A stretch of 64,000 nt of DNA from a virus: the IMG/VR virus record IMGVR_UViG_3300021959_007301, positions 23,243 to 87,242 of that record; one strand, given 5' to 3'. Under the pieces are notes generated by a model. It did no database searches, had not been told where the DNA came from, and saw only the letters and a program-made list of their open reading frames with translations. Numbering within the stretch: the stretch's first letter is position 1; each line of letters opens with the position of its first letter. Position numbers and translations under genes: made by a program. Shown here piece after piece: positions 1,974 to 58,573 of this stretch.

Positions 1974-3188
1974 ATGGCTGATGAAATCTATATAAACACA
2001 GGGTCGAGTTTTCAACAACCGTACCAAGGTCAATCTGTAAGAAATGCTCAATCGCTAGAAGTCAGACAGACTCCTGCACAGACTCCTGCAAACGCAAGAC
2101 AACCTAGTACGTATCAAAACAGACAACCGTTTACCTACAGAAGTCCTGTAAATGCACAGACACCATTTATAAGAAACGCTCAGCAACCCTTTACATACCA
2201 AAACCAAGGTAGAACACCTTTTACCTATAACTATCGTTCTCCGTTCACGTATGCACGTCAGGGACAGACTCCTTTCACGTATGCAAGACAGGGTAGAACA
2301 CCATATGTTGCAAATGCACAACAACCGTATCCTTATATCGCAAATAGTCAGACTCCATACATTGCTAATGCTCAACAACCCTATCCGTACATAGCAAACA
2401 AACAGAGTCCATACATTGCAAATGGTCAGAGTCCATACATTGCAAATGCTCAGTCACCTTATATTGCAAACGCTCAACAACCGTATCCGTACATTGCATC
2501 GTATCAAAGTCCGTTTACCTATAATCATAGACAACCGTTTACCTATGCAAGACAGGGTAGGTCACCATTTACGTATAGTAATCAACAACCTTACCCATAT
2601 ATTGCACAGACACCTTATACGTTTAATGCAACTGGAACACAAAGCATCAGTCCTCTAGACCAATCTTGGGGCCCATCAGGTGCAAGTCCATGGGTTCCTC
2701 GTCAAAGTGTTAACTCTTCAGGATTCCCTGAAGCATTCGCAACAATGGGGTTTAGTTTAGACACTACAAATAACCAAGTCGATGTTAGCTGGAAAGCTGG
2801 TACTTCAGCACAAATGGCAACAGTGTATACCGACTCAATTAATTATCAGTCTCCAGTAACAGATTCTTCAACATTTGAATGTAAATATACAGTATCTCAG
2901 CAATCGTGTTCAGGTAATTGTATGAGTGGTGCATTTGGGCCCACACCAGTTACCGATGGGTATAATTCAGGAACATATTATTCACTCACAACATTTGGTT
3001 GGATGGCAAAGGTTAATCCAAACTATGGTTCGTCCTTTTCAAGGGTTGAAACTGGTATTGGTGGCACATATGGTGTAACATTTACAGTCCGTGCAACTCC
3101 TTCAGGAAGTAGTGACAGTTATATTACAACTTATACTTCAGGTGGAATAGAACTGATTGCATCTACAGGACAGTTTAACGAGAACTAA
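1974..3188 (+). CDS. PFTY/PYIAN-repeat fibre protein with C-terminal globular domain
   Basis: Of its 404 residues, about 15-215 are an almost uninterrupted array of short aromatic/proline repeats: PFTYQNRQ, PFTYARQGQT, PYIANAQQ, PYPYIANAQS. Spacing between successive PFTY or PYIA units alternates mostly between 8 and 10 residues. From about residue 225 a different, non-repetitive beta-rich domain follows, with a CSGNCMSGAFGP segment (two Cys close together). No known family was recognised. The repeats are rich in Pro, Tyr, Gln and Asn and poor in acidic residues. A long extended fibre or adhesin with a terminal binding domain is an inference. Confidence 0.75.
   Translation: MADEIYINTGSSFQQPYQGQSVRNAQSLEVRQTPAQTPANARQPSTYQNRQPFTYRSPVNAQTPFIRNAQQPFTYQNQGRTPFTYNYRSPFTYARQGQTPFTYARQGRTPYVANAQQPYPYIANSQTPYIANAQQPYPYIANKQSPYIANGQSPYIANAQSPYIANAQQPYPYIASYQSPFTYNHRQPFTYARQGRSPFTYSNQQPYPYIAQTPYTFNATGTQSISPLDQSWGPSGASPWVPRQSVNSSGFPEAFATMGFSLDTTNNQVDVSWKAGTSAQMATVYTDSINYQSPVTDSSTFECKYTVSQQSCSGNCMSGAFGPTPVTDGYNSGTYYSLTTFGWMAKVNPNYGSSFSRVETGIGGTYGVTFTVRATPSGSSDSYITTYTSGGIELIASTGQFNEN
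2016..2627 (+). repeat. Coding repeat array 1 (PFTY/PYIAN units)
   Basis: These are degenerate 24- and 30-nt coding units inside the gene at 1974. Codon choice varies between units, so the protein repeat is better conserved than the DNA, which suggests selection on the peptide. Confidence 0.85.
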
Positions 3189-3190
3189 AA

Positions 3191-4006
3191 ATGGCAGAGT
3201 TGCAAACCACACAACAACCGTATCCTTATATTGCACAAGGTCAAACACCTTATGCATTGCAGGGTAGAACGCCTTATATTGCTAATGCACAGCAACCGTA
3301 TCCTTATATTGCGAATGCACAAAGTCCATATATTGCTAATGCAAGACAACCTGTAACCTATGCAAGACAGGGTCAAACACCGTTTACGTATCAGAGTAGA
3401 CAACCATTTACTTATCAGAACAGACAACCGTTTACATATCAAAATAGACAACCTGTTACCTATGCACGTCAAGGTCAAACACCATTTACCTATAGTAACA
3501 GACAACCTGCAACGTATGCTAGACAAGGTAGAACACCTTTCACGTATAACAATCAACAACCTTATCCGTACATTGCAAATGCTCAACAACCCTATCCGTA
3601 CATTGCAAATGCACAGGAACCAAATATTAGGTCTGCACAACAGGCATATCCTTACATTGCAAATGCAAGGAATCCGTTTACCTATCAACATAGGTCACCT
3701 TCTACATATAGAAACCCTGTAAATGCACAGAGTCCGTATATTGCAAATAGTCAAACACCATTTACCTATCAAGTTGCATATCAGATTCCTTATACTATAA
3801 GGTCACCATTTACCTATCAAGTATCCTACCCAACTACAAGAACCGTTGGGCCAGTTGCAAAGGTTAAAGGTGTTTTTGTGAATGATAGTGGAACACTTAG
3901 AAAACTTGATGAAGTATATGTAAACGATGGTGGAACATTAGAAAAAATTCACCAGTCCGTTCCTACTGCAAGATTCTCTAAGAATCCAAGTAACACGAGT
4001 GTATAA
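3191..4006 (+). CDS. PFTY/PYIAN-repeat protein with C-terminal VNDGGTL domain
   Basis: This 271-residue protein starts 2 nt after the previous stop. Residues about 5-215 are the same 8/10-residue repeats as in the neighbour (PYIANAQQ, PYPYIANAQS, PFTYQSRQ, PVTYARQGQT, plus EPNIRSAQ variants). The last 55 residues form a small module with two related strands, GVFVNDSGTLRKL and EVYVNDGGTLEKI, a motif pair seen in many phage tail proteins. Repeat first and module last is the reverse of the arrangement in the protein at 11102. A structural fibre role is inferred. Confidence 0.7.
   Translation: MAELQTTQQPYPYIAQGQTPYALQGRTPYIANAQQPYPYIANAQSPYIANARQPVTYARQGQTPFTYQSRQPFTYQNRQPFTYQNRQPVTYARQGQTPFTYSNRQPATYARQGRTPFTYNNQQPYPYIANAQQPYPYIANAQEPNIRSAQQAYPYIANARNPFTYQHRSPSTYRNPVNAQSPYIANSQTPFTYQVAYQIPYTIRSPFTYQVSYPTTRTVGPVAKVKGVFVNDSGTLRKLDEVYVNDGGTLEKIHQSVPTARFSKNPSNTSV
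3206..3838 (+). repeat. Coding repeat array 2 (PFTY/PYIAN units)
   Basis: This is the second array of 24/30-nt coding units, inside the gene at 3191. It uses the same unit vocabulary as array 1, in a different order. Confidence 0.85.
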
Positions 4007-11101: not shown

Positions 11102-12073
11102 ATGGCGTCAGGTAATCAAAGCGTAAAAACACCTACAGGGTGGAGTGCTACAAGAGGTGCATGGGTAAAAACTGCACAAGGTACTTGGAGTGCTGTAAAA
11201 CAAATTTACATCAAAACTCCTACTGGTTGGAATGACGCTTCAGGTCAAGAGTTAACTCAACAACCTTATCCGTACATTGCAAATGGTCAGTATCCATATA
11301 TTGCTAATGCACAACAACCTTATCCGTACATTGCAAATGGACAAACACCATATATTGCAGATGCACAACAACCTTATCCTTATATAGCAAATGCACAATC
11401 ACCATATATTGCTGATGCACAACAACCTTATCCTTACATTGCAAATGCACAGTCACCTTATATTGCAAATGGTCAGACACCATTTACGTATCAACATAGA
11501 CAACCATTTACATATGCTAGACAAGGTCAGACACCATTTACGTATCAACATAGACAACCTGTAACATATGCTAGACAAGGACAAACTCCTTTCACATATC
11601 AAAACAGACAACCGTTTACCTATCAACATAGGTCACCGTTTACCTATCAACATAGGTCACCGTTTACATACAACCATAGGTCTCCATTTACATACAGAAA
11701 CCCTGTGTCTGCACAAGAACCTAATATTAGAAATGGTCAAACACCGTTCACTTATAGTGCAAGGTATCCTGCAAATGCTCGATATCCAGCAAACGGTCAA
11801 ACACCGTTCACTTATAGTGCAAGGTATCCTGCAAATGCAAGACAACCAGTAGCATTTAGGTCACCGTTTACATATCGTGTACCTTATATTGCTAATGCAA
11901 GACAACCAAACAGTGCAAGGAACCCATTTACCTATCGTGTGCCTTATATTGCAAACGCAAGACAACCAAGTACAGCACAACAACCGTATACGTATAACTT
12001 CAGACAGAATGTTGTATACTTCTACGGTGGTGGTGGCGGCGGTGGCGGTTTCTTCCCACAACAATTGAAATAA
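11102..12073 (+). CDS. PFTY/PYIAN-repeat protein with N-terminal TGW module
   Basis: In this 323-residue protein, residues 1-48 form a module with three related strands (VKTPTGWSATRGAWVKT, AQGTWSAVKQIYIKT, PTGWNDASG), like small domains of phage tail proteins. Residues about 52-300 are repeats: PYPYIANAQS/PYIADAQQ blocks, then PFTYQHRQ/PFTYARQGQT, then YPANAR and PYIANARQ. It ends in a Gly run (GGGGGGGF). The repeat vocabulary is the same as at 1974, 3191 and 12092, so the four genes are paralogues with swapped globular ends. Confidence 0.7.
   Translation: MASGNQSVKTPTGWSATRGAWVKTAQGTWSAVKQIYIKTPTGWNDASGQELTQQPYPYIANGQYPYIANAQQPYPYIANGQTPYIADAQQPYPYIANAQSPYIADAQQPYPYIANAQSPYIANGQTPFTYQHRQPFTYARQGQTPFTYQHRQPVTYARQGQTPFTYQNRQPFTYQHRSPFTYQHRSPFTYNHRSPFTYRNPVSAQEPNIRNGQTPFTYSARYPANARYPANGQTPFTYSARYPANARQPVAFRSPFTYRVPYIANARQPNSARNPFTYRVPYIANARQPSTAQQPYTYNFRQNVVYFYGGGGGGGGFFPQQLK
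11255..11995 (+). repeat. Coding repeat array 3 (PFTY/PYIAN units)
   Basis: This array includes a recent 60-bp tandem duplication. The stretch starting at about 11738 (GGTCAAACACCG...) recurs at about 11798 with more than 40 identical bases. Several 24-bp tandem copies lie near 11620-11660. Confidence 0.85.
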
Positions 12074-12091
12074 TGAGGATTATAAAGTAAA

Positions 12092-12919
12092 ATGGCAACA
12101 GGTTTTTATAGGACGATAACAACAGGAAATGCGAGAAGCACGATAAACGTGCAGACTCCGTTTACCTATAATGCTAGGTATCCTGCATCAGCACAACAAC
12201 CGTTTACGTTCCAAAACCCATTTACGTATTCCAATAGATATCCTGCATCAGCACAACAACCTGTAACTTATCGGTCACCGTTTACATATCGTGTGCCTTA
12301 TATTGCTAATGCAAGACAACCGTTTACCTATAGAGTACCATTTACATATAGGGTTCCTTATATTGCTAATGCAAGACAACCGTTTACATACAACTATAGG
12401 TCACCATTTACCTATAGAAACCCTGTGTCTGCACAAGAACCAAATATAAGGTCTGCACAAGAACCAAATATAAGGTCAGCACAAGAACCTAACATTAGAA
12501 ATGCACAAAGTCCATATATTGCATCAGCACAACAACCGTACCCATATATTGCAAATGCACAATCGCCTTATATTGCTAATGCACAACAACCGTATCCTTA
12601 CATTGCAAATGGACAATACCCATATATTGCTAGTGCAAGACAACCGTTTACATATCAACATAGACAACCAGTGACATATGCAAGACAGGGTCAAACACCT
12701 TTCACCTATCAGCATAGACAACCAGTGACATATGCAAGACAGGGTCAAACACCTTTCACCTATCAAAATAGACAACCATTTACTTATGCACGTCAAGGTC
12801 AAACACCATTTACCTATCAACATAGACAACCGTTTACCTATGCAAGACAGGGTAGAACTCCAGTTGCAAGATGGGATGGTGAATTATCACAACAGTGGCC
12901 TGCAACACCTATTTCCTAG
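12092..12919 (+). CDS. PFTY/PYIAN-repeat protein, nearly all repeat
   Basis: This 275-residue protein has about 15 unique N-terminal residues (MATGFYRTITTGNARS). Repeats then run almost to the end: YPASAQQ, PFTYRVPYIANARQ, three consecutive EPNIRSAQ-type units, PYPYIANAQS, and 18-residue PFTYQHRQPVTYARQGQT doublets. The short tail is ARWDGELSQQWPATPIS. It lacks a clear globular domain, unlike its three paralogues, so it may be a fibre spacer or work with another protein. Confidence 0.7.
   Translation: MATGFYRTITTGNARSTINVQTPFTYNARYPASAQQPFTFQNPFTYSNRYPASAQQPVTYRSPFTYRVPYIANARQPFTYRVPFTYRVPYIANARQPFTYNYRSPFTYRNPVSAQEPNIRSAQEPNIRSAQEPNIRNAQSPYIASAQQPYPYIANAQSPYIANAQQPYPYIANGQYPYIASARQPFTYQHRQPVTYARQGQTPFTYQHRQPVTYARQGQTPFTYQNRQPFTYARQGQTPFTYQHRQPFTYARQGRTPVARWDGELSQQWPATPIS
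12150..12870 (+). repeat. Coding repeat array 4 with exact 54-bp tandem copies
   Basis: The sequence beginning at 12659 recurs at 12713 with a 54-bp period and essentially no differences over about 53 bases. This indicates recent repeat expansion. 54 bp equals one 8+10 residue doublet. Confidence 0.85.
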
Positions 12920-45264: not shown

Positions 45265-46509
45265 ATGAATAAAAGATCATATGACAGGTCAGAGTCAATT
45301 TCGATTGACGGCAAACCCTTCCACTTTACCCCTGACAGGAAGGAATTTTTGGACTCACTTCAGAAGAAGTATCCAAATCAAACCTCTTTTACTAAAGAGG
45401 ATTTCGAGAATCTAGGACATTTCCCCTACTGGGTGAAACATACTAGGTATAACTTTAAACAAGGTTCGGTGTTTAATCTCCAACCTATTTTGGGTGGTGG
45501 TTCCACTGCTAAGGTTGTTGAAATGAAAACTCCAACTCCTGCACCTCAGGTGACAGTCATGCCGACACAACAAGTGTCAAACATGCCAGTTGCTGCTGCA
45601 ACTGAGTCTGTCAATTCTGACAACTTCAAAATCATTCCTGAGAAAATGTCGAACTATGTTCCCTTTGGACACTTCAAAGATGTTGAGAACATCATCAAGT
45701 CCAAAATCTTCTTTCCAGTATTTGTGACTGGTCTTTCAGGTAATGGTAAAACATTGATGATTGAACAAGTGTGTGCAAAACTGAAGAGAGAACTCTTCAG
45801 AGTTAACATCACCATCGAAACCGATGAAGATGATTTGATGGGTGGACATACTTTAGTCAATGGTAACATTGTCTTCAGAGAAGGCCCTGTCATCAAGGCA
45901 ATGAGGAAAGGTGCTGTCCTTCTTCTTGACGAAGTTGACTTGGGTTCTAACAAGATGATGTGTCTGCAATCAGTTCTTGAAGGTAAAGGATACCTTATCA
46001 AGAAAACTGGTGAGTGGGTGACACCTGCAGAAGGTTTCACAGTTCTTGCAACTGCAAACACTAAAGGACAGGGTTCAGAAGATGGAAAGTTCATTGGAAC
46101 TCAAATCATGAACGAGGCAATGTTAGAAAGATTTGCAATCACTATGCAACAGGAATATCCTCCAGTGACTACTGAGAGAAAAATCCTTGCAAAGGAAATG
46201 GAATTGACTGGTTCGGTTGACCAAGAATTCGTTGAGAAACTTGTCGACTGGGCAGACGTTATCAGAAAGACTTTCTACGAAGGTGCAATCGATGATGTCA
46301 TCACTACTAGAAGGTTAGTTCACATCGTGAATGCCTACAGAATGTTTGGTGACAAACTCAAGTCCATTCAAATGTGTATCTCTAGGTTCGATGAAGAAAC
46401 TAGGAATGCAGTTCTTGACCTCTACACTAAGATTGATGCAGGGGTCAGTTTGACTGATGAAGATAATTCTGAAAACCCCATTGACGAATCAGGTACTGAA
46501 GAGGTATAA
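45265..46509 (+). CDS. MoxR/CobS-like AAA+ ATPase
   Basis: In this 414-residue protein the N-terminal DNA- or partner-binding region (RKEFLDSLQKKYPNQTSFTKEDF) is followed by the AAA core: Walker A TGLSGNGKT (about 155-163), Walker B VLLLDEVDLG (about 218-227), sensor 1 VLATANT, and arginine-finger region MLERFAIT. It is the family of CobS and MoxR ATPases, which pair with VWA proteins such as the one at 42599. It was driven by its own strong promoter with an AAGGAG site. CobS-like genes are known in marine T4-like phages. Confidence 0.9.
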   Translation: MNKRSYDRSESISIDGKPFHFTPDRKEFLDSLQKKYPNQTSFTKEDFENLGHFPYWVKHTRYNFKQGSVFNLQPILGGGSTAKVVEMKTPTPAPQVTVMPTQQVSNMPVAAATESVNSDNFKIIPEKMSNYVPFGHFKDVENIIKSKIFFPVFVTGLSGNGKTLMIEQVCAKLKRELFRVNITIETDEDDLMGGHTLVNGNIVFREGPVIKAMRKGAVLLLDEVDLGSNKMMCLQSVLEGKGYLIKKTGEWVTPAEGFTVLATANTKGQGSEDGKFIGTQIMNEAMLERFAITMQQEYPPVTTERKILAKEMELTGSVDQEFVEKLVDWADVIRKTFYEGAIDDVITTRRLVHIVNAYRMFGDKLKSIQMCISRFDEETRNAVLDLYTKIDAGVSLTDEDNSENPIDESGTEEV

Positions 46510-46805
46510 TGGTGTCAATGTTTGGTAAAAAGATTAACTACAAGTACAACGAGGGTGAACTCCTAAAGGAGTTTGCCCAGTACATCGACAAAACGTATGA
46601 CCAACATTACAGTTTGAACAAATACCAATCCACTGAATTTATTATTGACAGTGGACATGGTGAAGGTTTTTGTATCGGAAATATTTTAAAGTATGCACAA
46701 CGATACGGAAAAAAAGATGGGAAGAATAGGGCAGACATCCTTAAAGTGTTGCACTATGCTTTGTTTATGTTATATGTGCATGATAAGGAGACTAAATCAA
46801 AATGA
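46509..46805 (+). CDS. DUF3310-like protein
   Basis: This 98-residue protein has STEFIIDSGHGEGFCIGNILKYAQRYGKKDGKNRADILKVLHYALFML (in parts), the DUF3310 pattern of an N-terminal acidic helix, GN..KY..R.GKK and a terminal hydrophobic helix. These small phage proteins are often found beside replication genes; their activity is not established. It shares one base with the AAA gene and 4 nt with gene 45. Confidence 0.7.
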   Translation: MVSMFGKKINYKYNEGELLKEFAQYIDKTYDQHYSLNKYQSTEFIIDSGHGEGFCIGNILKYAQRYGKKDGKNRADILKVLHYALFMLYVHDKETKSK

Positions 46806-51264: not shown

Positions 51265-51291
51265 AAGGGGTCTTACGACCCCTTTTTTTTT
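51265..51291 (+). terminator. Terminator between converging genes
   Basis: The stem is AAGGGGTC/GACCCCTT with a 4-nt loop and T run on the + strand. It lies 3 nt from the end of the minus-strand gene and may limit transcription from both sides. Confidence 0.9.
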
Positions 51292-51294
51292 ATC

Positions 51295-51444
51295 TTAAGG
51301 ATAGAAAGGATTCTCTCTGATATAATGAGGTAATTCTATTTTCTTATTTTCCCTTACAGTGTTCTTGACACTAGATGTAAGGTGTTTTTCCCTAAGAGAT
51401 TTTTTGACTGCTCTTATAAAGAGCAAAGTTTGATATTTAGTCAT
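51295..51444 (-). CDS. Riboswitch-controlled basic small protein (49 aa)
   Basis: This is the only convincing minus-strand gene. MTKYQTLLFIRAVKKSLREK begins it; it has 11 Lys/Arg against 4 acidic residues and the N-terminal half forms an amphipathic helix. Start: ATG at 51444-51442 with GGAG 6 nt upstream. The leader contains two tandem glutamine-riboswitch-like aptamers and a late-promoter motif. Known glutamine riboswitches in cyanobacteria and marine metagenomes control nitrogen-assimilation genes or short proteins, so a role in manipulating host nitrogen regulation is plausible. No homologue was recognised. Confidence 0.7.
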   Translation of the reverse strand: MTKYQTLLFIRAVKKSLREKHLTSSVKNTVRENKKIELPHYIRENPFYP

Positions 51445-51446
51445 GT

Positions 51447-51464
51447 CAATCTCCGAAAAGATTG
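51447..51464 (-). promoter_or_regulatory. Shine-Dalgarno hairpin (riboswitch expression platform)
   Basis: Reading the minus strand, CAATCT and AGATTG pair around TTTCGG, trapping the GGAG ribosome site. The CAAT part is also the distal strand of P1 of the proximal aptamer. The two structures should be mutually exclusive, so glutamine binding would be expected to free the site. Confidence 0.6.
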
Positions 51465-51518
51465 CGTTCCTTCAGCACCATTGCCTACTTCCGTCTATTA
51501 CTAGATGAACGTAACAAT
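51461..51518 (-). ncRNA. Glutamine (glnA-class) riboswitch, gene-proximal aptamer
   Basis: On the minus strand the core order is ACGTTCATC, short hairpin CTA-GTAA-TAG, GACGGAAGTAGG, hairpin GCA-ATGG-TGC, GAAGGAACGC. P1 is CGTTC/GAACG. This matches the glnA RNA core as I remember it (CGUUCA...GACGGAAGUAGG...GAAGGAACGC). It lies immediately after the first aptamer and overlaps the expression platform. Confidence 0.88.
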
Positions 51519-51580
51519 GCGTTCCTTCGTCACAATTGACTACTTCCGTCTATACTTCAGATAAAGTATAAATGAACGTA
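51516..51580 (-). ncRNA. Glutamine (glnA-class) riboswitch, promoter-proximal aptamer
   Basis: It has the same core: ACGTTCATT, a longer hairpin TATACTT/AAGTATA, GACGGAAGTAG, hairpin GTCA-ATTG-TGAC, GAAGGAACGC. Compared with the second copy, the variable hairpins differ in sequence but stay paired (TCA/TGA against GCA/TGC), which is compensatory change. The aptamer starts one base after the predicted +1. Confidence 0.85.
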
Positions 51581-51584
51581 CAAT

Positions 51585-51592
51585 TATTTAGG
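51585..51592 (-). promoter_or_regulatory. Minus-strand late promoter (CCTAAATA) for the riboswitch gene
   Basis: The predicted +1 is 51579, directly before the CGTTC of the first aptamer. It is divergent from the + strand late promoter at 51611. Confidence 0.65.
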
Positions 51593-52249: not shown

Positions 52250-52739
52250 CAGAGATTGGAAAGTAGTGTTATTTACACTTCTTTTGTCAATGAATGCAAA
52301 TGCAACTGAGATAGTACATAAGTTTAAAAACCCATCCTTTAGTGGGATAGGTACTGGTTCTCATTATCTCACGATTGAGAACCAAGAACATTCTCGTAAG
52401 AAAGCGATAGAGGATGCTTTGGAGGCAGCACGTAAAGCTGCAGAACGTGAGGCAGATAACACTACACTTGCAAAGTTTATTAGAAACTTGGAGAGTAGAA
52501 TTTATGCACAGATGGCAAAACAACTGGTAGAGTCAATGTTTCAAAATGACAATCCAGTAAGGTTTGGTTCATTTGTGTTAGAAGGTTCAACGATAACGTA
52601 TGAAGTGATTACCAACGAAGACGGTACAGAGTATATTAAGATGACGATTGTTGCAGAAGATGGTTCAACAACAGAAATACAGATTCCAATTGGAACAGGA
52701 TACTTTGGTAGTGACTATGGCACGAACCCTGACGGTTAG
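52242..52739 (+). CDS. csgF: CsgF-like curli assembly protein
   Basis: This 165-residue protein starts at ATG 52242 (MNDRDWKVVLFTLLLSMNANA), a cleavable signal peptide ending ANA. The mature N-terminus TEIVHKFKNPSFSGIGTGSHYL matches the CsgF start, which in curli systems inserts into the CsgG pore (pattern L.Y.F.NP.FGG). A helical Ala/Arg-rich stretch and a C-terminal beta region follow. It overlaps csgG by 23 nt. The role as a CsgG partner is inferred from both sequence and adjacency. Confidence 0.75.
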   Translation: MNDRDWKVVLFTLLLSMNANATEIVHKFKNPSFSGIGTGSHYLTIENQEHSRKKAIEDALEAARKAAEREADNTTLAKFIRNLESRIYAQMAKQLVESMFQNDNPVRFGSFVLEGSTITYEVITNEDGTEYIKMTIVAEDGSTTEIQIPIGTGYFGSDYGTNPDG

Positions 52740-53610
52740 TCTAATATTTGGATTGTTATTAACATCATGTGCATCAGTCCCACAGTGGTCTGATGATCCT
52801 GCTGATTGCGCTTATGAAACTGGAAGGTTTGATGAGGGTTTCGGTAGAGATGTAGTTACAGGTGTTGCAAAACAAGTTACACGAAATTATATTTGTGTTG
52901 AGAGTCCACACGTAGTAGACCTACCATCTTATTTACAATTATTAGATTTACCGCCTGCAGAAACAAAACCTGTAGTTGCAGTGTACAACTTTGCAGACTT
53001 AACAGGACAAAGAAAGTACAGAGAGAATCTTGCAGATTTCTCAACTGCAGTTACACAAGGTAGTACTGCAATGTTAATCGATGCATTGAAAACTGCAGGA
53101 GGTGGAACTTGGTTTAGAGTCGTAGAAAGACAAGGACTTGATAACCTAGTAAGAGAAAGACAGATTATTCGTTCTGCAAGACAAGAATATGCAGACGAAG
53201 AGTCACAAGGAATTGCACCCATGTTATTCGCAGGAATGATTATTGAGGGTGGAATAATTGGTTATGATACTAACATTGAATCAGGTGGACGAGGCGCACG
53301 GACACTTGGAATCGGATTTAGTAAACAGTATCGACAAGATATTGTTACAGTCTCAATCAGAGCAGTTTCTGTTTTGACTGGGGAGATATTATTAAACGTC
53401 CAAACTACTAAAACAATTTTGTCATATGGTAGTGGGGGTGATGTGTTCAGGTTCATTGAACAGGGAACACAATTGGTTGAATATGAAGACGGTGTGGGAA
53501 AAAACGAGTCTGTCACTTATGCAGTGAGAACTGCAATAGAGGCAGGAGTATTAGAAATAATTAATCAAGGCCACTCACGTGGTTATTGGAAAATAGAGGG
53601 AAGAGAATAA
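52717..53610 (+). CDS. csgG: CsgG-like outer-membrane secretion lipoprotein
   Basis: This 297-residue protein starts at ATG 52717. The signal peptide has lipobox LLTSC, so it should be lipidated at Cys18 or so and sent to the outer membrane. CsgG blocks are PVVAVYNFADLTGQRK, WFRVVERQGLDNLVRERQIIRSAR (in parts), MLFAGMIIEGGIIGYDTN, RQDIVTVSIRAVSVLTGEIL and an FRFIEQG tail. CsgG forms the nonameric pore that exports curlin subunits. The length is close to E. coli CsgG (277). Confidence 0.92.
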   Translation: MARTLTVSLIFGLLLTSCASVPQWSDDPADCAYETGRFDEGFGRDVVTGVAKQVTRNYICVESPHVVDLPSYLQLLDLPPAETKPVVAVYNFADLTGQRKYRENLADFSTAVTQGSTAMLIDALKTAGGGTWFRVVERQGLDNLVRERQIIRSARQEYADEESQGIAPMLFAGMIIEGGIIGYDTNIESGGRGARTLGIGFSKQYRQDIVTVSIRAVSVLTGEILLNVQTTKTILSYGSGGDVFRFIEQGTQLVEYEDGVGKNESVTYAVRTAIEAGVLEIINQGHSRGYWKIEGRE

Positions 53611-54335
53611 TGTTAAAATATTTATTAGGCCTAAGCATGTTATTTTCGTCTTTCATGTTCGCACAAGCGTCTGACGATAATGAAATTAATATTAGTCAAA
53701 CTGGTGACACTTTGACACTATACATCGACCAAGTCGGTTATGGTAACAAAATAGGGTTGAATGACTTTTCATCAAGTTCATCGGCAATGCCTATCACTGG
53801 TACTAGTTTAACTTTTGATATCGATCAGATTGGTAATAGTAATTTACTATATGGTACCCTTACTGCAAACTCCTCAACATATAACATGTTGTTTACTGGA
53901 GATTCAAACGTATGGGATTGGTTGATAGGGGACACAGGAAGTTCTGACAGTTCTGCATTTGATGTTGACATCACAGGTAGTTCTAACACAATGGATTTAG
54001 ATCAAGGAAGTTTGTTCCAAGCAGAAAGACTGGATTTTGATTTAACAGTTATAGGTGATTCAAACGTATTTGATGTTGACGTAGAAGCAGACGATGTTAT
54101 TTGGAACTTTGATATTACAGGTGGTTCAAATAACATTAACACTTTACAAAAAGATGGTGCATATCAAGAAATCAATTTCACATTGAGTGGTGATAGTGCA
54201 GACGTAGACATAAACCAATTAAGTGGTACATGTCCTACAAACGTGTCTTCATGTAAAGGTATAATCACTTTGGATGTAACAAGTGACAATGCAACTATTC
54301 AAATCAATCAGAAAGACTCAAATAACGATTCTTAG
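53610..54335 (+). CDS. Curlin-repeat protein 1 (CsgA/CsgB-like)
   Basis: This 241-residue protein starts at ATG 53610, overlapping the csgG stop. The signal peptide ends in FMFAQA. The mature part has imperfect beta repeats with the curlin pattern of paired I.Q.G..N: NEINISQTGDTLTLYIDQVGYGNKIG, LTFDIDQIGNSNLLYG and VTSDNATIQINQKDSN (in parts). It is likely exported through the CsgG-like pore. Amyloid formation is inferred, not shown. The 3' end overlaps the FecR gene by 47 nt. Confidence 0.78.
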   Translation: MLKYLLGLSMLFSSFMFAQASDDNEINISQTGDTLTLYIDQVGYGNKIGLNDFSSSSSAMPITGTSLTFDIDQIGNSNLLYGTLTANSSTYNMLFTGDSNVWDWLIGDTGSSDSSAFDVDITGSSNTMDLDQGSLFQAERLDFDLTVIGDSNVFDVDVEADDVIWNFDITGGSNNINTLQKDGAYQEINFTLSGDSADVDINQLSGTCPTNVSSCKGIITLDVTSDNATIQINQKDSNNDS

Positions 54336-55434
54336 TATTGTACTTCTATCGGTGTCTGTTCATGCAGACACCATAGGAGACATAGTAGAGTCCACTGGAG
54401 TCGGTGCAATCTTTCGTTCAAACGAAGAGATACCCTCATCCACCAATTTAGGAATCAACCTATACGATGAGGCAAAAACACAAAACGGTAGAATGCTCAT
54501 TGAGTTTCTCGATGAAGAGGAACTTGCATTAACTGAACACACTATAGTGTACATCGATGAGGCATACTACGACCCTGACCCATCGAAATCCAAAATGGCA
54601 ATTCGAATGGCAAGGGGAACTGCACGATTCGCTTCAGGTGCAGGAAACAAAATCAAAAAAAGAAACATAAGTGTCACAACACCTACGGCACAAATTGCAA
54701 TCAACGGAACAGATTTTACAACAACCATAGATGAACTTGGACGTTCACTTGTGGTACTTTTGCCAGATGCATTTGGTGATGCATCAGGTGAAATAGTAGT
54801 GTCAAATGAAGGTGGTCAAGTGACACTTACAGAAGCATATTCTGCAACAATGGTATCGTCATTAGCAACACCACCTACACCAACAGTCACAATACAAAAT
54901 GTAACCCCCTCAATGATTGATAATATGTTCATTGTAAACCCCCCTAAGGAGGTCTCAGATGCGATACAAGAACAGGCACAGGATGACTTAGACCAAGACC
55001 AAGGGTTATTGGATGTAGATTTTTTAGAATTTAATGATTTAGAACAAGATGCATTAGAAGATACTGGAAGAGACTTAGAATACTCTGCATTAGATGTAGA
55101 TTTCTTAGATGTAGACTTCCTTGTTGACTTACTAGATGTAGTGGAAGAACTTATAAAAACCACAAAACAACTTGCTGACCAACAAGAAACTTCAGGTGGT
55201 TCAGGTGAGTTTGTTATCAAAGGTGCAAACTTTGGTAAGAACGATAATTCACAGTATAACATCTTCATCGAAGATGGTGGTATTGTCTTTTATCGTGATG
55301 TTAACGGTGTGATATCGTTAAAATTTGCAGCTGGTGCCAATATAACACTAGATACAATAGTTGATGGATATGAAGGTATCATCACCACAAATAGTGGAGA
55401 TAGTATAGATGTTCGGATACGTCAAGTTAACTAA
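54289..55434 (+). CDS. Secreted FecR-domain protein
   Basis: In this 381-residue protein the start is ATG 54289 (MQLFKSIRKTQITILSIVLLSVSVHA), a signal peptide. Residues about 30-180 form a FecR domain: VGAIFRSNEEIP, GRMLIEFLDEEELALTEHT, GTARFASG and ISVTTPTAQIAINGTDFTT. The C-terminal half has acidic Leu/Asp-rich repeats (DVDFLDVDFLVDLLD) and a terminal beta domain. FecR domains outside TonB systems occur in exported surface proteins. Here it is embedded between two curlin genes and may anchor or nucleate the polymer. Confidence 0.75.
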   Translation: MQLFKSIRKTQITILSIVLLSVSVHADTIGDIVESTGVGAIFRSNEEIPSSTNLGINLYDEAKTQNGRMLIEFLDEEELALTEHTIVYIDEAYYDPDPSKSKMAIRMARGTARFASGAGNKIKKRNISVTTPTAQIAINGTDFTTTIDELGRSLVVLLPDAFGDASGEIVVSNEGGQVTLTEAYSATMVSSLATPPTPTVTIQNVTPSMIDNMFIVNPPKEVSDAIQEQAQDDLDQDQGLLDVDFLEFNDLEQDALEDTGRDLEYSALDVDFLDVDFLVDLLDVVEELIKTTKQLADQQETSGGSGEFVIKGANFGKNDNSQYNIFIEDGGIVFYRDVNGVISLKFAAGANITLDTIVDGYEGIITTNSGDSIDVRIRQVN

Positions 55435-56341: not shown

Positions 56342-56739
56342 TGCCATATTCACAAAAAGTAATCGATAGATTCGAAGGTGTTCTCAATGCACCTGAACAA
56401 TTCTCAGTTGGTAGATTCGACCCCAACGACCCAAACGTTGCAACAGGAATGACAGGAGCACCTGCTTGTGGTGATGTAATGAAACTGCAACTTAAACTTG
56501 ACGAGAACGAAATGATAGTAGACGTGAAGTTTAAGACTTATGGTTGTGGAAGTGCAATCGCAAGTAGTTCACTATTCGTAGATTTACTCAAAGGTAAAAC
56601 CATAGAAGAAGCAAAACAAATTAAAGATAAAGAGATTGCAGAAATTTTAGAACTACCACCAATCAAATTACACTGCTCAGTTCTTGCAGAAGACTCAATC
56701 AGAAAGGCAATAGAGGATTGGGAATCAAAACGTGTATAG
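56341..56739 (+). CDS. iscU: Fe-S cluster scaffold (IscU family)
   Basis: This 132-residue protein has every cluster-binding residue: C43 and D45 in PACGDVM, C69 in YGCGSAIASSS, and H111 and C112 in IKLHCSVLAED. The length is typical of IscU (128). It assembles Fe-S clusters that carriers such as the IscA homologue at 36053 deliver. It is overlapped by the adenylate cyclase gene (8 nt). No phage cysteine desulfurase is visible here, so it would borrow host sulfur donors. Confidence 0.93.
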   Translation: MPYSQKVIDRFEGVLNAPEQFSVGRFDPNDPNVATGMTGAPACGDVMKLQLKLDENEMIVDVKFKTYGCGSAIASSSLFVDLLKGKTIEEAKQIKDKEIAEILELPPIKLHCSVLAEDSIRKAIEDWESKRV

Positions 56740-58573
56740 TTGGAAAACAGTCTTAGTAACTATTGCGTTACTAGTCGGACTCAAAGTTTGGAATCCATAC
56801 ATCGTAGAAAACATTCAGTGGTCATGGTTCGATTTCTTACACCAACAACAAGAAAAGATTCACAGTAATGATATTGTCTTAGTAGACATAGACGAAAGGT
56901 CACTAGAAGAGTTCGGACAATATCCATTCAAGAGAGGTATCTACACTGATTTACTTCTCAACTCTCATTACACTAACACTCATGTGTTTACACAACTCTT
57001 TGCAAAACCTGATAGACAACCTGAGGAAGATTTAAAACTTGCAGAGGGACTAATCAACAGACTTACAATTTTATCTGCAGCTCCATCTGCACAAATACAA
57101 AAAGGTTCTGCGCCATTTGTTAACACTTCAGTGTTCGGTGGTGGAGACATAAAAAATTCTGCGTGGAATTTTACAGGAATCGTTGCACCTCTTCCTATCT
57201 TACAAGAGAACACATACGGTGTAGGAGTCACAACTGCAACTCCACCATTTAGTGGTACACCAAACTTTGACGGAACGGTGCGTAGTGCGCCGTTGATTGT
57301 TACTGCAAACGATGAGATTTACCCATCGATAGTGTTAGAAGTGTTACGTGCATATTACGACCAACCAAATTATCAGACAAGAGTCACAGAAGACGTAGGT
57401 ATTGAATGGATTCGTATGGGGAGAGAAGACCCTATAGAAACGACTCCAACAGGAGACATATTAATCTCCTATTGGAATCACTTTGAGAGAATCTCAGCAG
57501 TTGACCTTACGCAGTCAGATATTCAGGATAAGATTCTAATTTGGGGTCTAACGGCAGAGGGTCTGAATAATCCAGTTTCAACTCCAGTGGGTACAATGTA
57601 TCCCCACGAAGTTCAAGCCTCAATTCTCCAAACCGTCTTACAAGAAGTTCAAATACAACAATCCTACTATCTTGAATTTTTAGAAATTGTTCTTCTTCTG
57701 TCAGTCCTTCTAATAACGTTGGTAATGGTCTACAAACTTCCCACAACTCTTGGGGTGTTAGGTTGTCTAAGTGTTGTAGGATTTCAGGTGGGTGGGGGTT
57801 TATATTTGTGGACTTCAAGTCTCGTTCTTTTCGATACCTTCTACTCATCTATCGCCTCCTTGATAGTTTTCGGTCACGCATCATATAATCAATACTATAA
57901 GACTTATCAACTCAAGGAACAGATTAGAAAACAGTTCCAAAAGTATTTATCTCCTGACATGGTCAAACAATTACAAGACAACCCTGACATGTTAGTGTTA
58001 GGTGGACAAAGAAAGGAGATGACATTCTTGTTCATGGACATCTGTGGGTTTACTCCAGTGTCAGAATACTACAAAAACAACAATGACCCTGAAGGTTTAG
58101 TCGAACTTATTAATAAATACTTAGACACAATGACCAAAATTATACTTGCAAACGGTGGAACCATCGACAAGTATATGGGAGATTGTATCATGGCGTTTTG
58201 GAATGCTCCCTTAGACTGTGAAAATCACGCAGGTATGGCAGTTAAATCTGCAAGGGAAATTTCAGAAAAAGCAGATGAACTTATTACAGAACTTGAAGAG
58301 ATGGGTCTTCCTAGGATTGATGTTGGTATCGGTATCAACACAGGCGAATGCATTGTCGGAAACATGGGGTCAGAACTTAGATTTGACTATTCCGTCATTG
58401 GAGACGCCGTCAACTTGGCATCTAGACTCGAAGGACAGACTCGCAATTACGAGGGGGTACGAGTGTTGCTATCATCCACAACTGCTGGAAAGTGTCAAGA
58501 TGGATTCTTTACAAGAGTCGATTCGATTAAAGTTAAAGGAAAATCCGAATCAATTGAGGTCTATACCCTTTGA
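56732..58573 (+). CDS. Membrane CHASE2 sensor with class III adenylate cyclase
   Basis: This 613-residue protein has a GTG start. An N-terminal membrane helix (about 5-20) is followed by a CHASE2-type extracytoplasmic sensor (about 30-305, with IVLVDIDERSLEEFGQYPFKR). Two or three membrane helices span about 313-383, and the class III cyclase domain is at about 425-610. The metal Asp residues are present in FLFMDICGFT (about 434) and GDCIMAF (about 482), with Lys in GGTIDKYMGD, the adenine-selective Asp and transition-state Asn/Arg in VIGDAVNLASRLE (about 555-567). All catalytic groups are intact, so cAMP production is expected. This is very unusual for a phage. Confidence 0.9.
   Translation: MYSWKTVLVTIALLVGLKVWNPYIVENIQWSWFDFLHQQQEKIHSNDIVLVDIDERSLEEFGQYPFKRGIYTDLLLNSHYTNTHVFTQLFAKPDRQPEEDLKLAEGLINRLTILSAAPSAQIQKGSAPFVNTSVFGGGDIKNSAWNFTGIVAPLPILQENTYGVGVTTATPPFSGTPNFDGTVRSAPLIVTANDEIYPSIVLEVLRAYYDQPNYQTRVTEDVGIEWIRMGREDPIETTPTGDILISYWNHFERISAVDLTQSDIQDKILIWGLTAEGLNNPVSTPVGTMYPHEVQASILQTVLQEVQIQQSYYLEFLEIVLLLSVLLITLVMVYKLPTTLGVLGCLSVVGFQVGGGLYLWTSSLVLFDTFYSSIASLIVFGHASYNQYYKTYQLKEQIRKQFQKYLSPDMVKQLQDNPDMLVLGGQRKEMTFLFMDICGFTPVSEYYKNNNDPEGLVELINKYLDTMTKIILANGGTIDKYMGDCIMAFWNAPLDCENHAGMAVKSAREISEKADELITELEEMGLPRIDVGIGINTGECIVGNMGSELRFDYSVIGDAVNLASRLEGQTRNYEGVRVLLSSTTAGKCQDGFFTRVDSIKVKGKSESIEVYTL

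Follow-up and report, generated by a model that had tools for sequence, protein, structure and literature searches.

What does a leader that opposes nearly all other genes of a marine phage respond to, and what does the small gene behind it do? The window, i.e., the whole stretch of 64,000 nt analyzed here, is a part of the IMG/VR record IMGVR_UViG_3300021959_007301 (virus record of 87 kb). Plus-strand ORFs make up 94% of it, and no supporting evidence was found for the remaining minus-strand ORFs in the gaps of the window, so that the description of this gene as the only minus-strand one, given by an earlier sequence-only reading, stands in a weak sense. The phage is marine and T4-like, with the major capsid protein most closely related to that of Methylophilales phage Melnitz (67% identity) and 63–65% identical to those of Pelagibacter phages HTVC008M and Mosig, all three being T4-like Kyanoviridae.

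The window also encodes a CsgG protein, a NifU-like protein, HSP20, a peroxiredoxin and a CHASE2-cyclase protein. CsgG, FecR-domain and CHASE2-cyclase proteins of this T4-like phage are found at 52648–53610, 54283–55434 and 56732–58573, and several proteins built from YIANAQ/PFTYQ-like repeat units, probably structural, at 1974–4006 and 11102–12919.

The elements of the locus are the following:

51585–51591, minus strand: T4-type late-promoter-like element CTAAATA (core TAAATA at 51590–51585), identified by sequence, 12 nt ahead of P1 of the upstream aptamer
51516–51580, minus strand: upstream glutamine-I aptamer (RF01739) with a long P2 hairpin; cmscan 50.5 bits, E 4.1e-8
51461–51513, minus strand: gene-proximal glutamine-I aptamer (RF01739); cmscan 55.6 bits, E 1.5e-9
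51447–51464, minus strand: hairpin CAATCTT-TTCG-GAGATTG with the Shine-Dalgarno sequence (SD) GGAG at 51454–51451, from the predicted fold and covariation in 55 distinct leaders
51295–51444, minus strand: 49-aa basic protein of family A (MTKYQ..RAVKK..LPxYIxxNPFYP), pI about 10.2, 5.9 kDa
51267–51282, no strand assigned: hairpin GGGGTC-GTAA-GACCCC right behind the stop codon of the 49-aa ORF, identified by sequence

Hence, the leader order from 5′ to 3′ is CTAAATA, the first aptamer, an 8-nt spacer, the second aptamer, the SD hairpin, and the ATG of the ORF at 51444, behind the GGAG. The hairpin at 51267–51282 is followed by a T run on the plus strand and looks like the terminator of the converging plus-strand gene.

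The two tandem sequences are confirmed as glutamine-I riboswitch aptamers at the level of the covariance model (cmscan, Rfam 15, gathering cutoff of 35 bits for RF01739). Two adjacent glnA-class copies on the minus strand had been proposed, with the Rfam glutamine model suggested as a check, and this search indeed yields exactly two RF01739 matches in the window, both on the minus strand and well above the cutoff, and none elsewhere in the 87-kb record. Both aptamers keep the conserved core (GACGGAAGTA, GAAGGAACGC) and intact P1, P2 and P3, with no non-standard pair marked. The compensatory changes described for the variable hairpins are also seen, as P2 (TATACTT/AAGTATA vs. TCTA/TAGA) and P3 (GTCA/TGAC vs. 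GGCA/TGCT) differ between the copies and remain paired in both.

The five bases after P1 form all five pairs with the arm adjoining the SD in 52 of the 55 distinct phage and bacterial leaders, which were picked for having an SD and an ATG. On average 4.95 pairs are formed, vs. 4.34 with the arms re-dealt among the leaders (maximum of 4.56 in 10,000), a control that ignores relatedness. While these statistics do not account for kinship, the compensatory changes span unrelated protein families: position 3 is C–G in 25 leaders, T–A in 25 and A–T in five, and position 4 is C–G in 43 and T–A in 12. The C right after P1 pairs with G in all 55 leaders. In the window it is C51464, the first base of the hairpin and the equivalent of aptamer C60, which pairs with G23 on glutamine binding, stabilizing P1 (PMC11477058). 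Since the ligand-engaged C60 lies inside the SD stem, binding should open the base of the hairpin and turn translation on. We favor a translation-ON switch with putative glutamine binding, a reading that agrees with the behavior of cyanobacterial glutamine riboswitches, which have been described as ON switches (PMC6316151, PMC6698751).

The sequence-only reading had placed the overlap between aptamer and hairpin in the CAAT strand of P1. The SD hairpin holds, being supported by covariation in the 55 leaders, but the ATTG/CAAT extension of P1 does not: it is present in the window and its close relatives, and absent or unpaired in most tandem loci. Among the compared leaders, the conserved shared nucleotide is the C right after P1 instead of the CAAT strand. 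The predicted minimum-energy fold of the unliganded leader contains the SD hairpin and lacks the canonical second aptamer, so that the fold by itself is no proof for or against the switch.

The late-promoter motif ahead of the leader recurs as well. Of the 65 distinct tandem phage loci, 64 have TAAATA in the 40 nt ahead of the first aptamer, with about seven expected from shuffles. Its position is mostly –12/–13, and a second group is observed at –27 to –31, with an extra hairpin intervening. The full TATAAATA is present in 30 of the 65 distinct upstream regions; the window has the CTAAATA variant, with the core at –12, which recurs in other tandem loci.

The tandem-aptamer pattern search in IMG/VR yielded 110 stretches, 99 of them evaluable, i.e., with the second aptamer complete and the downstream sequence long enough. 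In all 99, an SD and an ATG 18–31 nt past P1 open an ORF of 32–65 aa. The tandem loci encode 61 distinct small proteins. All have pI >9, and they belong to several unrelated families: A (35 proteins), B (WTxYC, 10), C (4), D (RPRA, 5), E (3), and four others. Family C, with its YRGV repeats, is the only phage family matching DUF4278 by Pfam. Each of the 18 larger tandem contigs has exactly two RF01739 aptamers, and among the matches listed for single-aptamer viral loci most also lead into a tiny ORF. As an exception to this microprotein rule, the aptamer of three single-aptamer viral loci has a different tail (CCAGACAAGGCT) and precedes a protein of 195–196 aa. A cyanophage origin was considered and rejected: psbA was found in none of the 18 large tandem contigs and in both cyanophage controls, hence the tandem-phage records do not look like typical cyanophages.

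The 49-codon gene proposed by the sequence-only reading proves to be real. Homologues of its product occur in 13 IMG/VR contigs (73–100% identity; 25 sequences in the family A alignment), and by sequence comparison the ORF is under purifying selection, with dN/dS of about 0.2–0.4 against relatives divergent enough to measure, two nearly identical pairs giving too few changes to use. Family A has no match in PHROG, Pfam or NCBIfam, no convincing match in PDB, and no sequence link to any GS- or PII-binding protein; the window protein itself matches neither DUF4278 nor any other known family, IF7/IF17 included, by Pfam and NCBIfam. With members of families A, B and C as queries, tblastn gave no match in named phages. 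The AlphaFold model is mostly helical and of moderate confidence (pLDDT 78, pTM 0.40). Some phage proteins of family A (four loci) have a YRGV-like linker motif recalling the DUF4278 repeats, with no Pfam match. The leading guess for the function is a regulator of nitrogen assimilation analogous to cyanobacterial IF17; it draws on how the gene is regulated, on the protein being small and basic, and on the DUF4278 assignment of another phage family, and not on homology.

Tandem glutamine-I pairs have been described previously (PMC2864571), including 157 doublets (PMC9481103). The window aptamers are similar to the RF01739 glutamine-I (glnA) class in scoring well above the cutoff and in the known tandem form; unlike the known tandems, the window and the other phage loci have a putative late-promoter setting and, as near-exclusive targets, tiny basic proteins. 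In cyanobacteria, a glutamine switch controls the GS inactivator IF17 (gifB) (PMC6316151, PMC6698751), and DUF4278 is located at the N-terminus of IF17, while further genes controlled by glutamine switches in cyanobacteria have this domain as well (PMC6316151). The likeness of the phage module to this system is a glutamine ON switch before a small-protein gene, as well as the DUF4278 assignment of family C, whereas no match to DUF4278 or IF is seen for family A. Glutamine-II (Downstream-peptide, RF01704) also controls short ORFs, in marine picocyanobacteria, but differs in the RNA architecture, and cmscan gave no match to it in the window at the gathering threshold. One review restricts glutamine riboswitches to cyanobacteria (PMC6316151), and another one names Pseudomonadota (PMC12452182).

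The cultured phages Melnitz and Mosig, with published riboswitches (PMC9004378), are likewise T4-like marine phages having RF01739 with a small basic ORF behind it, with a single aptamer each vs. the tandem in the window phage. In Mosig, the aptamer is followed by a 51-aa family D protein, annotated as hypothetical; family D is also present in three Pelagibacter phages, with no riboswitch nearby in the two inspected. In Melnitz, the aptamer overlaps the end of the annotated tmRNA; next come an SD hairpin (CACTT/GAGTG) and a 32-aa ORF that resembles family B, the region concerned lying at about 46398–46593 of MZ577097.1. This plus-strand ORF, MTLYQQWCYLKAQKEYRRRQKILMYFRIRLKG, is unannotated, and the record has a minus-strand hypothetical ORF there instead. 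The published target of the Melnitz riboswitch is the tmRNA, with riboswitch-mediated lysis timing offered as a speculation (PMC9004378); judging by the arrangement, the 32-aa ORF may be a simpler target.

The tandem pattern was also found in bacteria, in 71 stretches with one genome per species, some of them chance matches without the second aptamer; SAR86 records dominate. The family A protein is located behind the switch in four SAR86 genomes. Its neighbors there, ilvBHC-like genes or those of a TonB receptor and an oxidoreductase, indicate on inspection a chromosomal setting. The family is more varied in phages than in these four genomes. The family A profile search retrieved six of 199 genomes of the SAR86 order (four strongly) and none of 368 other Gammaproteobacteria, while RF01739 scores above the cutoff in 79 of the 199 sampled genomes of the order. 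Moreover, the switch is accompanied by family B in Burkholderiales records, by the MTYxxYxWK family in SAR116 and other alphaproteobacteria, and by DUF4278-like proteins with YRGV repeats in SAR92. The SAR86 family A, Burkholderiales family B and SAR116/alphaproteobacterial counterparts have the same expression platform as the phage loci.

Other targets are observed, too. Eight loci in records of SAR86 and other gammaproteobacteria have tandem glutamine switches ahead of glutamine-synthetase-like genes, with a platform unlike the SD hairpin; in SAR86, such tandem switches also lie before TonB-receptor-like genes (five loci) and a porin-like outer membrane gene (three loci). In seven SAR86 loci, the same switch and SD hairpin as in the phages precede another small-protein family, which ends in FFPYYL; its layout, a basic helix and an aromatic tail, recalls family A.

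Bacteria with the chromosomal module are probably the hosts of the module-bearing phages, and the SAR86 homologues make SAR86 the host lead for the window phage, at perhaps even odds. Host assignment by the tetranucleotide profile was abandoned, as it gave no discrimination and the controls, Mosig and Melnitz, missed their own host groups. The window tRNA-Gly has no match in 121 SAR86-order genomes, a comparison that is uninformative as run without a positive control.

Taken together, the comparative data favor and support the core of the sequence-only reading, a minus-strand tandem glutamine-I switch of the translation-ON type behind a putative late phage promoter, and we estimate the probability that the element turns on translation of the 49-aa basic protein in late infection at roughly 0.72. 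The breadth of the module, its near-constant coupling to tiny basic proteins and its close relatives in bacterial chromosomes had escaped that reading. Phage late factors would redirect the host RNA polymerase to start near 51579, as the conserved late box suggests. Without glutamine, the 3′ tail of the gene-proximal aptamer, from C51464, would form the SD-occluding hairpin indicated by covariation. With glutamine bound, G23 would pair with C51464 and stabilize P1, so that the hairpin base opens and the SD is freed, as expected from published structures of this riboswitch class. The second aptamer may steepen the response, tandem glutamine switches having been described as pseudo-cooperative (PMC9481103). 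Finally, the small protein may act on host nitrogen assimilation, e.g., on glutamine synthetase or a PII-type partner, like IF17; this step, suggested by the regulation, is the least certain one. Against the overall reading count the facts that the hairpin and the aptamer have mainly one conserved base in common, that the canonical second aptamer is missing from the unliganded minimum-energy fold, that the late box of the window, CTAAATA, falls short of the full TATAAATA, and that family A shows no sequence relation to GS- or PII-binding proteins.

If the tandem RNA were a glutamine OFF switch, or worked by transcription termination, it would have parallels among other glutamine-I leaders, which do differ: the SAR86 switch before glnA has a tail without an SD hairpin, and OFF regulation would make sense there. 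In the window, however, the platform is an SD hairpin that no T run follows, 18–31 nt from the ATG; the ligand-engaged base inside the sequestering stem predicts opening on binding, and the cyanobacterial glutamine riboswitches tested are ON (PMC6316151), making this variant improbable. Even more so, by far, is a transcript acting mainly as antisense RNA against the converging plus-strand genes, with an incidental ORF: the element indeed opposes the surrounding window genes, but the ORF is under purifying selection and lies within a 385-nt gap between plus-strand genes, and the module is co-oriented with its neighbors in 60 of the 69 scored phage loci.

The role of the protein is a closer matter. 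It may be a phage late function, such as lysis timing or host takeover, for which glutamine is merely a cue of the cell state, with no role in nitrogen assimilation. The late-type promoter, the curli-like CsgG gene nearby in the window, the lysis-timing speculation of the Melnitz paper (PMC9004378) and the absence of a functional family for family A fit this possibility. On the other hand, homologous genes behind the same switch in SAR86, Burkholderiales and SAR116 chromosomes argue for a cellular role, and one phage family is DUF4278, the domain of IF17 and of cyanobacterial switch targets (PMC6316151). We consider a purely late function a serious candidate, at somewhat less than even chances.

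Neither the aptamer class nor its tandem arrangement is new, and its occurrence in marine phages is known as well. New are the same switch with homologous small proteins in the chromosomes of SAR86 (family A), Burkholderiales and SAR116, the DUF4278 counterpart in SAR92, and the small ORFs directly behind the known riboswitches of Melnitz and Mosig. The literature searched, which left most subscription papers outside, contains no description of a conserved phage module with microproteins or of heterotroph chromosomal counterparts.

With these observations, phage glutamine riboswitches, so far the subject of scattered reports, become a general module whose targets can be named: tiny basic proteins, which have no annotation in the libraries searched, except for one DUF4278 family. 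They provide a testable mechanism, with C60 competing with the SD hairpin, and show that glutamine-I switches reach further than was known, into many genomes of marine heterotrophs (as in the sampled SAR86 order). The module also gives a clue to the hosts of phages not yet cultured, and is available in cultured phage–host pairs, Mosig/SAR11 and Melnitz/OM43. A bolder idea, which we regard as tentative and rather unlikely as a whole, is that phages of marine heterotrophs have nitrogen regulators of the host type. These glutamine-switched microproteins would have been exchanged with the chromosomes of SAR86, Burkholderiales and SAR116, and would adjust glutamine synthetase or its signaling in late infection as a non-cyanobacterial counterpart of IF17. 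More generally, the module suggests that phages read, and perhaps steer, the nitrogen status of their hosts.
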